Source: Myxococcaceae bacterium (GTDB taxonomy: Bacteria; Myxococcota; Myxococcia; Myxococcales; Myxococcaceae). From it: a DNA stretch of 64,000 bases. Numbering within the stretch: position 1 is the first letter of the stretch; every line of letters begins with the position of its first letter. The notes below the pieces were generated by a model. It was not told the origin of the DNA. It did not search any database and was given only the letters and a program-made list of their open reading frames with translations. The DNA lies in NCBI GenBank assembly GCA_019694595.1, contig JAIBBQ010000008.1, positions 1-64,000 on the forward strand. The letters are read 5' to 3'. Positions 38,217 to 42,773 of the stretch are shown here, in pieces. The position numbers were made by a program, and so were the translations under genes.

Positions 38217-40787
38217 GTGCCCTTCGCGTTCCTCGTGGTGCTCGCCCTCGGCCAGGCCGACGGCGGAGCGGGTGTGCTGACCAAGGCGCCGGCGCTGGTG
38301 CGCCAGGTGGAAGCGCGGTTCCCGCCGGCGCTCGCCGACGCGGGGGCGAGCGGCACGGTGGTGATGGAGCTCGACCTCGGCGCCGACGGCAAGGTGCTCG
38401 ACGTGCGCGTCACCACCTCGGCGGGCGCGGAGTTCGACCTGGCGGCGCTGGAGGCGGTGCGGCAGTTCGAGTTCACCCCGGCGGAGGTCGACGGGGTGCC
38501 CGCGGCGGTGCGGCTGTCGTATTCCTACGAGTTCCTCTTCCGTCCGGCGCCGGTGGCGGAGGTGCCCGACGCTGGGCTGGAGGCGGTCTTCTCCGGGCGC
38601 ATCGTGGAGCGCGGCACGCGCGAGCCGCTCGGGGGCGCCATCGTCTCGGTGGGCGGGCTCGAGGTGGTGACGGGCGACGACGGCCGCTTCGAGCTGCGCG
38701 GAGTGCCCGAAGGCCAGCAGCAGGTGACGGTGAGCGCGGTGGACCACGCGCGCTACGTGGAGCGCGAGGACTTCGTGCCCGGCACGCGCACCGAGGTGAC
38801 GTACCACGTGCGCCGCGAGGTCTACGGCGGCGGCGAGACGGTGGTGCGCGGGAAGAAGGAGCGCAAGGAGGTGGCGCAGATCTCCCTGCGGCAGGAAGAG
38901 ATTCGCCTCATCCCCGGCACGCAGGGCGACGCGTTCAAGGTCATCCAGAACCTGCCCGGGGTGGCGCGGGCGCCGTTCGGCATCGGGCTCCTGGTGGTGC
39001 GGGGCAGCAAGCCGTGGGACACGCGGACCTACGTCGACGAGACGTTCATTCCGCTGCTGTTCCACTTCGGCGGGCTCTTCGCGACGTACAACGCGAACCT
39101 GCTGCAGGACCTCTCGTTCTCTCCAGGCAGCTTCGGGGTGCCGTACGGGCGGAGCATCGGCGGGCTGGTGGAGGCCACCGCGCGCACGCCGTCGCAGAAG
39201 GGCGTGCACGGCTACGCCGACGTGAACGTCGTCGACGCCTCGGCGCTGGTGGAGATGCCGCTCTCGCAGAGCTGGAGCGCGGCGGTGTCGGTGCGTCGCA
39301 GCTACATCGACATCCTCCTGCCGGCGGTGCTGGGCGCCTTCGTGAAGGCGAAGGAGGCGCTCAGCTTCACGGTGGCGCCGCGGTACGCCGACTGGCAGGT
39401 GCGCGCGGAGTGGAAGCCCCCCGATGCCCGCAAGCGCTTCTTCGTGAGCTACTTCGGCTCGTCGGACGCGCTGAAGGTGCTGCTGCCGAACCCGGCGCTC
39501 GACCCCGAAGGGCGCGGGGAGTTCGGCACCTTCATCGCCTACCAGCGCGCGGTGGTGGGGCTCGACTGGCCGCTCGCCGACGGCGTGAGCTACCGCATGC
39601 GCACCTCGGTGGGGCTCGACCAGGTGCGCTTCAGCGCGGGGAGCGACCTCTTCGCGGACGCGACGACGGTGCCGGTGCAGATGCGGCACGTGGTGACGCG
39701 GGAGCTGCCCGACGAGCACCTGGCGCTGAGCTTGGGGCTCGACGTGCTCGCGCTGCCGGGCAAGGTGAGCCTGCAGAGCCCGCCGGTCTTCAAGCTGGAC
39801 CAGATTCCGGATCCGTTCCTGTCGCGCCAGCTCATCCGCGAGGACGCGGCGCAGAGCGCGGTGGAGCCGGGGCTCTTCCTCGACGCGGTGTGGAAGCCGG
39901 TGCCGGCGCTCAAGGTGGTGAGCGGGGTGCGCTTCGACGGCGACACCACGATGGGGAAGGCGTGGGTCGACCCGCGGCTGGCGGTGTTCTGGAACGTCTT
40001 CGAGCCGACGACGCTGAAGGCGGCCGCGGGGCTGTACCACCAGCCGCCCGACTACCGGCAGGGCCAGCTCCTGCAGAAGTTCGGCAACCCGAACCTGAAG
40101 CCGGAAGGGGCGCGGCAGCTGATGGTGGGGGCGGAGCAGCGCTTCACCGAGGCCATCAGCCTCGACGTGCAGTTCTATTACAAGAGCCTCTTCGACCAGT
40201 CGCGGCAGACGCTGGCGCTCGACTCGGGCGACGTGAGCACCTCGGCGACGGACCTCAACTACACCTCGACGGGCTTCGGCCGCAGCTTCGGCATGGAGGT
40301 GCTCCTGCGGCACCAGCTGACGAAGAACTTCTTCGGCTGGGTGGCGTACTCGCTGAGCCGCACCGAGCGCGACTACTTCCAGGGCAAGCAGTACGGCCCG
40401 TCGCCGCTGGACCAGCCGCACAACCTGGTGGCGCTGGCGAGCTACAAGCTGCCGTTCGACTTCATCCTGGGGGCGAAGATTCGCTACACGTCGGGCGCGC
40501 TCTCGACGCCCTACGTGGGGGCGCTCTACGACGCGAACGGCAACTACCACTTCCCGCTGTTCGGCACGCCCAACAGCCGGCGCCTGCCGGACTTCTTCCA
40601 GCTCGACGTGCGGCTCGACAAGCGCTTCGTCTTCAAGGACTGGATGCTGGCGCTGTACCTCGACGTGCAGAACGTGACCAACCGGCGCAACGTCGAGGCG
40701 GTCTCGTACAACTACGACTACACGCAGCAGCAGTACGTGACGGGCTTGCCGATTCTCCCGGTGCTGGGCGTGCGAGGTGAGTGGTGA
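38217..40787 (+). CDS. TonB C-terminal domain fused to TonB-dependent receptor
   Basis: 856 residues. A short signal (MPFAFLVVLALGQADGG) precedes a TonB C-terminal domain at about 30-105 (VRQVEARFPPALADAGASGTVVMELDLG, AALEAVRQFEFTPAEVDG). Then comes a carboxypeptidase-regulatory-like beta domain (about 120-200; GRIVERGTREPLGGAIVSVGG). A plug domain follows (about 225-330; IPGTQGDAFKVIQNLPGVAR, SFSPGSFGVPYGRSIGGLVE), then a 22-strand-type barrel ending in an aromatic residue (GVRGEW). TonB domains normally sit in the inner-membrane partner; here one is on the receptor. GTG start at 38217. The stop overlaps the next gene's GTG (GTGA). Ligand unknown. Confidence 0.9.
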   Translation: MPFAFLVVLALGQADGGAGVLTKAPALVRQVEARFPPALADAGASGTVVMELDLGADGKVLDVRVTTSAGAEFDLAALEAVRQFEFTPAEVDGVPAAVRLSYSYEFLFRPAPVAEVPDAGLEAVFSGRIVERGTREPLGGAIVSVGGLEVVTGDDGRFELRGVPEGQQQVTVSAVDHARYVEREDFVPGTRTEVTYHVRREVYGGGETVVRGKKERKEVAQISLRQEEIRLIPGTQGDAFKVIQNLPGVARAPFGIGLLVVRGSKPWDTRTYVDETFIPLLFHFGGLFATYNANLLQDLSFSPGSFGVPYGRSIGGLVEATARTPSQKGVHGYADVNVVDASALVEMPLSQSWSAAVSVRRSYIDILLPAVLGAFVKAKEALSFTVAPRYADWQVRAEWKPPDARKRFFVSYFGSSDALKVLLPNPALDPEGRGEFGTFIAYQRAVVGLDWPLADGVSYRMRTSVGLDQVRFSAGSDLFADATTVPVQMRHVVTRELPDEHLALSLGLDVLALPGKVSLQSPPVFKLDQIPDPFLSRQLIREDAAQSAVEPGLFLDAVWKPVPALKVVSGVRFDGDTTMGKAWVDPRLAVFWNVFEPTTLKAAAGLYHQPPDYRQGQLLQKFGNPNLKPEGARQLMVGAEQRFTEAISLDVQFYYKSLFDQSRQTLALDSGDVSTSATDLNYTSTGFGRSFGMEVLLRHQLTKNFFGWVAYSLSRTERDYFQGKQYGPSPLDQPHNLVALASYKLPFDFILGAKIRYTSGALSTPYVGALYDANGNYHFPLFGTPNSRRLPDFFQLDVRLDKRFVFKDWMLALYLDVQNVTNRRNVEAVSYNYDYTQQQYVTGLPILPVLGVRGEW

Positions 40788-41968
40788 AGCGCGCGCTCCT
40801 CTGCCTGCTGCTCGCCGGCTGCGGCGAGGCGTTCCTCCCGGAGACGGTGGTGGTGGACCTGCGGGTGCTCGGCGTGAAGGCGGAGCCGGCGGAGCTGCGG
40901 CCGGGCGAGGCGGCGACGCTCACCGCGCTGGTGAAGGACCCGACGCGTTCGGCGCCGCCGACCATCGTGTGGCTGGGGTGCGACCCCGACCCGTTCGGCC
41001 AAGGCCGCAGCGCGTGCAGCAACCCGACGGTGCTGCAGGACCTGGCGAGCGCGGGCTCGAGCGGAATGTTGCCGGTAGGCGTCCACCTCATCGGCTTCAA
41101 CGACCAGGCGCGCTACGCGGTGTCGAAGGACCTGTTCTCGGTGTTGCCGGAAGGCGACCCGCGGCGGCTCAAGGGCACGGTGGGGCAGGTGCTGGCGCTG
41201 GCGGTGGCGGACACGGTCCCGCCGGATCAGCTGGGCGAGGTCTTCAAGAAGGTGCAGTCGGGCGAGGTGAAGGCGGTGGTGACGCTGTTCCGCATCGTGG
41301 TGCGCGAAGGCGAGATGCGGAACACCAACCCGGTGCCGGCGCGGCTCCTGGTGGGCGGCGAGGCCATCGCTCCCGGGGCGCACGCGCTGGTGAAGCAGGG
41401 TGAAGACAGCGTGGTGGCGCTGGAGGCGACGGAGGCGAGCTTCGAGCCGTACACGCAGACGCAGCCCGACGGCACGGTGGAATCGAAGACCGAGCGGCTC
41501 ATCAGCGCGTGGTACTCGACGTCGGGGCGCTTCTCGCAGCCGCGGCTGGCGCTGGACAGCGACGTGGAAGACCGCTTCTCGCCGCCGGGCGGAGAGGAGC
41601 CGAAGGATCCGTTGCCCGAGAGAAGGGAAGGGCAGCTCTACGTGGTGCTCCGCGACGCGCGCGGTGGGAACGCGTTCCGGGAGAGCGCGTTCTACGTGTG
41701 TGACGAGGGCCGGGCGCGGCCGGTGGTGCGCACGGTGTCGACGCCCTCGACCCGGGACGACGTGGTGGTCCTCGAGGGGGAGCACCTCGAGCAGCTGCTC
41801 GACGTGGTGGCGGGGCCGGTGGCGCTGGAGCAGCCGTTCTTCGACGCCGCTTCGGGGCGGTGGAGCGGGCGGATTCCGAAGGGGCTGGTGAAGGGCGAGT
41901 ACCCGCTCGGGTTGCGAGGGAAGGACTGCTCGAGGACGTCGGCGCCGGTGTCCCTCGTGGTGCCCTGA
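40784..41968 (+). CDS. Lipoprotein coupled to the TonB receptor fusion
   Basis: 394 residues, starting at a GTG (40784) within the receptor stop codon; a GTG at 40781 would add one residue. MKRALLCLLLAGCGEAF-type signal with a lipobox (LAGC). The mature protein has an Ig-like beta-sandwich start (VVVDLRVLGVKAEPAELRPGE, then ATLTALVKDPTRSAPPTIVWLGCDPDPF) and further beta domains. Translational coupling suggests a surface or periplasmic partner of the receptor, in the manner of SusD-like lipoproteins, but no SusD similarity is seen. Confidence 0.82.
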   Translation: MKRALLCLLLAGCGEAFLPETVVVDLRVLGVKAEPAELRPGEAATLTALVKDPTRSAPPTIVWLGCDPDPFGQGRSACSNPTVLQDLASAGSSGMLPVGVHLIGFNDQARYAVSKDLFSVLPEGDPRRLKGTVGQVLALAVADTVPPDQLGEVFKKVQSGEVKAVVTLFRIVVREGEMRNTNPVPARLLVGGEAIAPGAHALVKQGEDSVVALEATEASFEPYTQTQPDGTVESKTERLISAWYSTSGRFSQPRLALDSDVEDRFSPPGGEEPKDPLPERREGQLYVVLRDARGGNAFRESAFYVCDEGRARPVVRTVSTPSTRDDVVVLEGEHLEQLLDVVAGPVALEQPFFDAASGRWSGRIPKGLVKGEYPLGLRGKDCSRTSAPVSLVVP

Positions 41969-42370
41969 GTCGAGGAATCCGCGCGGCGGCGCAGCAGATG
42001 AGCCCGGCCGGCGCGGCTCGAAGCCAGGGAAGCTGCAAGAGTGAGGCCGAGTCCGGGTGTGCCGACGTGCTGGAGCGGGGCCGGCCCTGGTTTTTCAGTG
42101 ACACCAAACTTGAGACCATCAATGCAATAAAATGGCATCAATCTTTGCGATGATGCGCTCATGTTTGGTGTAGTTGAAAAACCTGGTCCCGCCCGGCTCC
42201 TCTCCTGGGCCTCGTCGAGCCTGTCCGCCGCGGGAGCGGAGGACGCGTACCTTCGCTGATGGCGCTGGCGGTACCCCTCCCCCTCCTCGTGCCTTTGCTG
42301 CGACGAGGAGCGCTCCCGGCAGAGGAGTGCTTGCGCCGCCGAGGCAGAACAGTGTGCGACTCGGCGCCGA
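41969..42370. other. Gene-free 402-base region with AT-rich insert
   Basis: No supported gene. The region holds a sharply AT-rich block (about 42086-42186) inside otherwise GC-rich sequence; see the separate palindrome entry. The flanks (41969-42085 and 42187-42370) have no good frames or recognisable motifs. They separate the TonB-lipoprotein operon from a small minus-strand gene. Confidence 0.6.
42086..42186. repeat. 101-bp imperfect palindrome, AT-rich (possible MITE or IS remnant)
   Basis: The ends 42086-42114 and 42158-42186 are 29-base inverted repeats with 24 of 29 positions matching. The shared core is GGTTTTTCA-N3-ACACCAAAC-N-TGAG. Symmetry continues weakly into the 43-base centre, which also contains the direct repeat CATCAAT twice. 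Base composition differs strongly from the rest of the window. It contains no gene. Terminal inverted repeats of this size on a short AT-rich insert fit a MITE or the fused ends of an insertion sequence. A bidirectional terminator or site-specific recombination site are alternatives. No obvious target-site duplication was found. Confidence 0.65.
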
Positions 42371-42715
42371 TCAGCGGTCAGCTTTGCCGAAGTAGCTCAC
42401 CACCGCGAAGGTGAGCGCATCCCCGACCGTCCGTGCGTCCGTTCTCACGTGCTCGGCGCCGAGCGCGCCGCCCGAGACGACCGTCGTGTACGGCCGAGCT
42501 CCCGGTCCGCTCCTCTCGCCGTCGAGCTTGAGGAGGACGACTGCGCCCTCCTGCCGCATGCGCTCCAGCAAGGGCCAGAAGTCCTCGACGTGGTCCTGGC
42601 GCGGAAGCGCCGTGCCCAACTGGCTCGCGACCTTTGGCAGCGCCTCGTGGTGTTCCCGGTAGTCCAAGATGCCTCCGCGTGTGAGGTCCGAACGATAGGT
42701 GTTCAACGCTGCCAT
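42371..42715 (-). CDS. Small hypothetical protein, relaxed codon use
   Basis: 114 residues from the ATG at 42715 (MAALNTYRSDLTRGGILDYR). A globular alpha/beta protein: a DYREHHEALPKVASQLGTAL segment, then AVVLLKLDGERSG, TTVVSGGALGAEHV and a final VGDALTFAVVSYFG helix. No signal. Codon use is more relaxed than in neighbours (several TTG, CCA, GCA, ACA and AGA codons), which hints at horizontal acquisition. I do not recognise a named family; size, composition and isolation would suit an immunity-type or accessory protein. A longer frame reaches 42868 but overlaps the divergent gene. Confidence 0.65.
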   Translation of the reverse strand: MAALNTYRSDLTRGGILDYREHHEALPKVASQLGTALPRQDHVEDFWPLLERMRQEGAVVLLKLDGERSGPGARPYTTVVSGGALGAEHVRTDARTVGDALTFAVVSYFGKADR

Positions 42716-42773
42716 TGCGCCTTGCCTGAACCCCTGGCTTGCTCCGCCGCCTCTCGCTTCACGAGGACCGCCC

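Follow-up and report, generated by a model that had tools for sequence, protein, structure and literature searches.

The window, i.e. the whole 64,000-nucleotide stretch of myxobacterial DNA analyzed here, carries a non-coding repeat between two convergent genes, 40781-41968 (+) and 42371-42717 (-). The first of these is a 395-aa ORF that matches no Pfam or NCBIfam family; 14 of 39 relatives have homologues of it (~31-50% identity) and the same genome has a second copy (G000:C389, L168), which indicates a real conserved family, to which no function is assigned. On its upstream side, 38217-40787 (+) encodes a predicted fusion of TonB to a receptor-like protein: within its 856 aa, a TonB C-terminal domain (residues 33-106) precedes a carboxypeptidase-regulatory-like domain and an outer-membrane beta-barrel region. 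The 114-aa ORF that converges on the repeat from the other side has no Pfam or NCBIfam match either, was not found beside the homologues of the 395-aa ORF in relatives, and is probably the small gene with relaxed codon use mentioned in a preliminary description of this DNA. The same description saw an accessory patch around a palindrome at this place; an ordinary intergenic gap is the better description.

The palindrome is one block of a ~374-bp non-coding repeat, the strand of which is set by convention with the GGAATCC end placed left. The 40781-41968 ORF has its stop codon 3 bp before the start of the element, which ends short of the convergent ORF ending at 42371, in agreement with the earlier statement that no gene lies inside. 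Its features in the window are:

41971-42344, + strand: entire repeat, one of ten copies in the genome (blastn of all copies against each other, 1.5 kb of flank on each included, plus multiple alignment)
41971-41997, + strand: left end CGAGGAATCCnCnnGGCnnCGCAGCAG, the most conserved block (27 bp, mean pairwise identity 84%)
42032-42051, + strand: second conserved block, TTTCAAGAAG..GGCCGAG in other copies (alignment, mean identity 71%)
42072-42200, no strand: central palindrome, which contains the previously described 42086-42186 (inverted-repeat search and folding)
42115-42160, no strand: 46-bp loop or tip, found in either orientation relative to the flanks among the copies (forward versus reverse alignment scores)
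42223-42244, + strand: small GC-rich hairpin GTCCGCCGC-GGGA-GCGGAGGAC (pattern search and alignment)
42278-42308, + strand: CCCCCTCCTCGTGCCTTTGCTGCGACGAGG block with a 6-bp stem, CCTCGT/ACGAGG (alignment)
42332-42344, + strand: right end, a CGnCGCCGC-like GC-rich block (alignment; boundary approximate)

The palindrome begins ~100 bp past the 40781-41968 ORF, and its arms (42072-42127 and 42145-42200; 56 nt, 79% complementary, 17-nt spacer) form by far the strongest inverted repeat of the 64-kb window in a search for arms of at least 28 nt within 200 bp; the runner-up of that search has 38 nt at 74%. As single-stranded RNA the palindrome folds at -68.9 kcal/mol, compared to -36.0 +/- 3.8 kcal/mol for 200 dinucleotide shuffles (z = -8.7; 0/200 as good), and folded as DNA it reaches z = -7.3. 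The 100-bp bin 42100-42199 has a GC content of 47%, whereas its surroundings have 63-77%, which bears out the reported break in composition, and the motif CATCAAT does occur twice in the center, at about 42117 and 42136. The arms reach into the GC-rich flanks, so that the outer arms are GC-rich and the inner arms AT-rich: the 101-bp imperfect palindrome placed earlier at 42086-42186 is present there, but those coordinates cover the AT-rich part only, the real extent being 42072-42200; likewise, its 29-bp inverted ends are an inverted repeat, but one that belongs to an internal hairpin and not to the ends of the element, as the repeat continues for ~100 bp on the left side and ~140 bp on the right.

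Searched with the palindrome, the genome (7.28 Mb, a 394-contig assembly, 99% complete) gave several further copies, and comparison of these loci with their flanks extended the similarity to 300-410 bp; in all, there are 10 dispersed copies of 171-411 bp. A single copy per genome, the outcome that the preliminary description had set against its own reading, is not what the search gave: there are ten copies in this genome and none was found in the relatives searched. In the whole genome, CGAGGAATCCnCnnGGCnnCGCAGCAG matched exactly 10 times at 0-1 mismatch, and the next-best sites, at 3 mismatches, are no more than chance would give. Codon-based ORF calls place every copy between ORFs, and copies occur in both orientations relative to neighboring genes; the neighbors, named from sequence only, are mutually unrelated (dnaG/yqeY/rpsU, recJ, acyl-CoA dehydrogenase, cyclase, superoxide dismutase, and others). 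The wider architecture of 300-410 bp is common to 9 of the 10 copies; the remaining one, the 171-bp C329 copy, has no palindrome, and its two flanks meet at a short GAGGCCGGCCGGCCTC palindrome.

Alignment of the copies, which are ~70% identical overall, gives a defined order of blocks: the left end, TTTCAAG..GGCCGAG, the central palindrome, the GTCCGCC hairpin, CCCCCTCC..GAGG, and a right end that is short and GC-rich. Averaged over pairs of copies, identity reaches 84% for the left end, 76% for the CCTC block, and 71-77% for the second block and the palindrome arms; most spacers between blocks are 40-51% identical, which is near the level of unrelated GC-rich sequence. The GTCCGCC hairpin (42223-42244) is near-identical in five copies, degenerate in a sixth, and missing from four; it was also considered as an independent repeat, but a pattern search at 0-1 mismatch found it only inside the element family. 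Block conservation of 71-84% beside spacers of 40-51% is not expected of uniform neutral decay and makes continuing constraint possible, with the blocks preserved either by a mobilizing enzyme or by the host.

The family appears to be restricted to this lineage, the genus being represented by this one genome in the comparison set. Neither the left-end motif nor the core nor the whole element has a counterpart in 39 relatives; 95 other genomes of the same bacterial family gave only scattered, unrelated 1-mismatch matches and no copy; and a search of 194 further genomes of the phylum, in which a few candidates per genome were scored, turned up no copy. Viral contigs (IMG/VR), phages and plasmids gave no match of note. 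An exact pattern scan of the species-level GTDB collection returned 28 hits, which we judged to be chance matches because they are scattered over unrelated phyla. Literature searches on myxobacterial repeats yielded nothing on this repeat family.

The C99 copy (L118, G000:C99:8000-17000) splits a rpsU-yqeY-dnaG cluster between yqeY and dnaG (gene names again read from sequence). The yqeY-dnaG gap measures ~440 bp with the copy here, versus 11-290 bp without the element in 23 relatives and just 11-18 bp in the same-family genomes G002 and G001. This difference suggests that the element was inserted in this lineage, and is the best evidence for it. The empty-site comparison is usable at this one locus only; at the window locus, relatives do not keep the gene order downstream of the 395-aa ORF, and an empty site there is therefore unusable.

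Taken with its dispersed copies, the element is probably a member of a lineage-restricted, non-coding intergenic repeat family of ~300-410 bp that resembles an old MITE-like mobile element, non-autonomous and with an AT-rich hairpin in its interior. It is short (<500 bp), contains no transposase gene, and is present in several dispersed copies (10 copies, 171-411 bp), whose positions are intergenic by codon-based ORF calls, e.g. between yqeY and dnaG and between convergent gene pairs. Formal membership in the MITE class is unproven, as target duplications were tested for and not found: the longest shared string averages 4.5 bp within copies as it does between copies, and decay of a duplication is possible. 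For terminal inverted repeats, which measure 4-30 bp in MITEs, the only candidate is a short GC-rich match, GCGGCGnCG / CGnCGCCGC, that lies ~12 bp inside the conserved left end and whose variable positions do not match each other. All left-end matches in the genome are the ten copies, so no autonomous element with the same left end is present in the 394-contig assembly, which may lack one; the genome yielded no IS whose ends match; and no PF01797 match, the mark of a Y1/RAYT transposase, was obtained in the 99%-complete genome, in which the controls were found. The earlier proposal of a MITE is borne out in part: it fits the ten dispersed intergenic copies and their absence from the relatives searched, but its 29-bp arms are internal and neither a target duplication nor an IS with matching ends was found. 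The joined ends of a lost insertion sequence, also proposed, receive no support.

We propose that an enzyme that acted in trans on the conserved blocks dispersed the copies; this enzyme may since have been lost or may be unrecognizable in a fragmented assembly. After the spread, the spacers would have decayed, some loops would have flipped through hairpin-mediated inversion, and one copy would have lost its hairpin. The family is apparently undescribed, and is probably old and inactive and MITE-/ERIC-like. At the window site the element is probably either spacer DNA only or a weak transcript-end hairpin between the two convergent genes.

Hairpins are expected to invert the loop between their arms, and long palindromes are often lost. 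Relative to the flanks, the 46-bp loop of the window copy and of c302 (and, by eye, of c279) reads as the reverse complement of the loops of c81, c86, c99, c164a and c187, and the loop of c164b has the orientation of this latter group, more weakly. Alignment scores illustrate the difference: c302 scores 36 forward and 3 reverse against the window, and 7 forward and 25 reverse against c86. Trees of flanks and blocks have support too low for counting inversions.

Conservation by the host could alternatively mean that the copies are structured non-coding RNAs, or elements of mRNA 3' ends, kept as a family for their function, which we regard as unlikely. Such a family would show what is seen here, namely several hairpins and blocks 71-84% identical joined by variable linkers (40-51%); the copies moreover include stem-preserving variants (CCTCGT/ACGAGG, CCTCAT/ATGAGG and CCTCAC/GTGAGG), and c164b has an altered yet still paired GTCC stem, although stem-preserving changes in two small hairpins are too few to decide. 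The long arms speak differently: arms of the same copy form 21.9 Watson-Crick pairs of 28 and arms of different copies 21.8 (permutation p = 0.52), so that the main hairpin shows no covariation beyond what inheritance gives. A putative end-closing helix has no covariation at variable positions (by eye), the remainder of the element folds like shuffled sequence once the palindrome is removed (z between -2.4 and +1.0), no Rfam family is matched at the gathering score, and the copies face both ways relative to neighboring genes. Rfam returned sub-threshold matches to eukaryotic microRNA precursors only, of the sort given by any long hairpin. An RNAalifold consensus was set aside as support for an RNA because its paired columns are largely invariant, and so was the GC-rich part as a giant hairpin, the fold of which does not go beyond shuffles.

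A bidirectional transcription terminator or convergent-gene spacer, in which both strands of the palindrome would carry a GC-rich stem and then a T-run, is likewise an improbable account of the family. It suits the position of the window copy between convergent genes, and on the + strand short GC-rich stems are followed by TTTTT at the palindrome edge, with 2 weak terminator-like sites against 0.4 expected. But the stems ahead of the T-runs are just 5 bp, the C99 copy lies between yqeY and dnaG, two genes of the same direction, the C329 copy has lost the T-runs, and 370 bp in ten copies is more than a terminator needs.

We consider it rather remote that the family is a new kind of mobile palindromic element devoid of conventional terminal repeats and target duplications, which would spread via several internal blocks (the left-end motif and the hairpins) recognized by some enzyme, with the loop inverting in its life cycle. 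A nested arrangement, in which a separate, older GC-rich repeat received an AT-rich palindromic MITE in two orientations, is very improbable as well: the core does differ in composition and occurs in either orientation relative to the flanks, and one copy is without it, but no core turned up apart from the larger element, and the core has one and the same position in all 9 copies that contain it and shares its palindrome with the outer GC-rich arms, while hairpin deletion and inversion account for the same facts with one element. Least credible is a site-specific invertible switch (a phase-variation site) with a loop flipped by a recombinase, since both loop orientations do occur among the copies but the loop is only 46 bp and has no promoter-like site, no recombinase was recognized among the genes adjoining the window copy, and the flank and block trees are too weakly supported to show repeated inversion, so that a single ancestral inversion may be enough. 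The recombination site suggested in the preliminary description finds no support save these inverted loop orientations, which general hairpin-mediated inversion can explain. An attC-type integron site and a retron msd were considered for position and shape; the consensus R-box motifs of attC are not present by eye.

The MITE-like reading places the element beside several known systems. ERIC sequences are about 127 bp long, and E. coli genomes carry copies of them; the present element is longer (300-410 bp), is conserved block-wise, and has no blastn match in 5,426 E. coli genomes. It resembles ERIC in being an imperfectly palindromic intergenic repeat that is lineage-restricted, has length variants, and lacks a known mobilizing enzyme, and also in its low copy number (ERIC numbers dozens or fewer in some genomes). 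ERIC sequences of enterobacteria are classed as MITEs (PMC10969869, PMC3116915), as are the Correia elements of Neisseria, for which inversion has also been described (PMC10969869). With bacterial MITEs the element shares a length of <500 bp, its non-coding, multicopy, intergenic and hairpin-forming nature and an AT-rich part; unlike them, it has no clear terminal inverted repeats and no insertion-site direct repeats, no related insertion sequence was found, and its palindrome is internal. REPINs and REPs, which are mobilized by RAYT (IS200-like Y1) transposases (PMC3116915), are also intergenic repeats with hairpins and a presumed mobilization in trans, but the present family has no Y1_Tnp gene in its genome, a low copy number, and a much longer unit.

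In conclusion, the dispersed palindromic repeats between the genes of this myxobacterium make up an apparently undescribed family. Spurious ORFs run into the element, which is a warning for annotation, and the family is usable as a lineage marker. Its uneven conservation, inverted loops and hairpin-less copy make up a small natural record of the inversion and deletion of long hairpins; should an active enzyme be found, it would help explain how palindromic repeats spread without target duplications.
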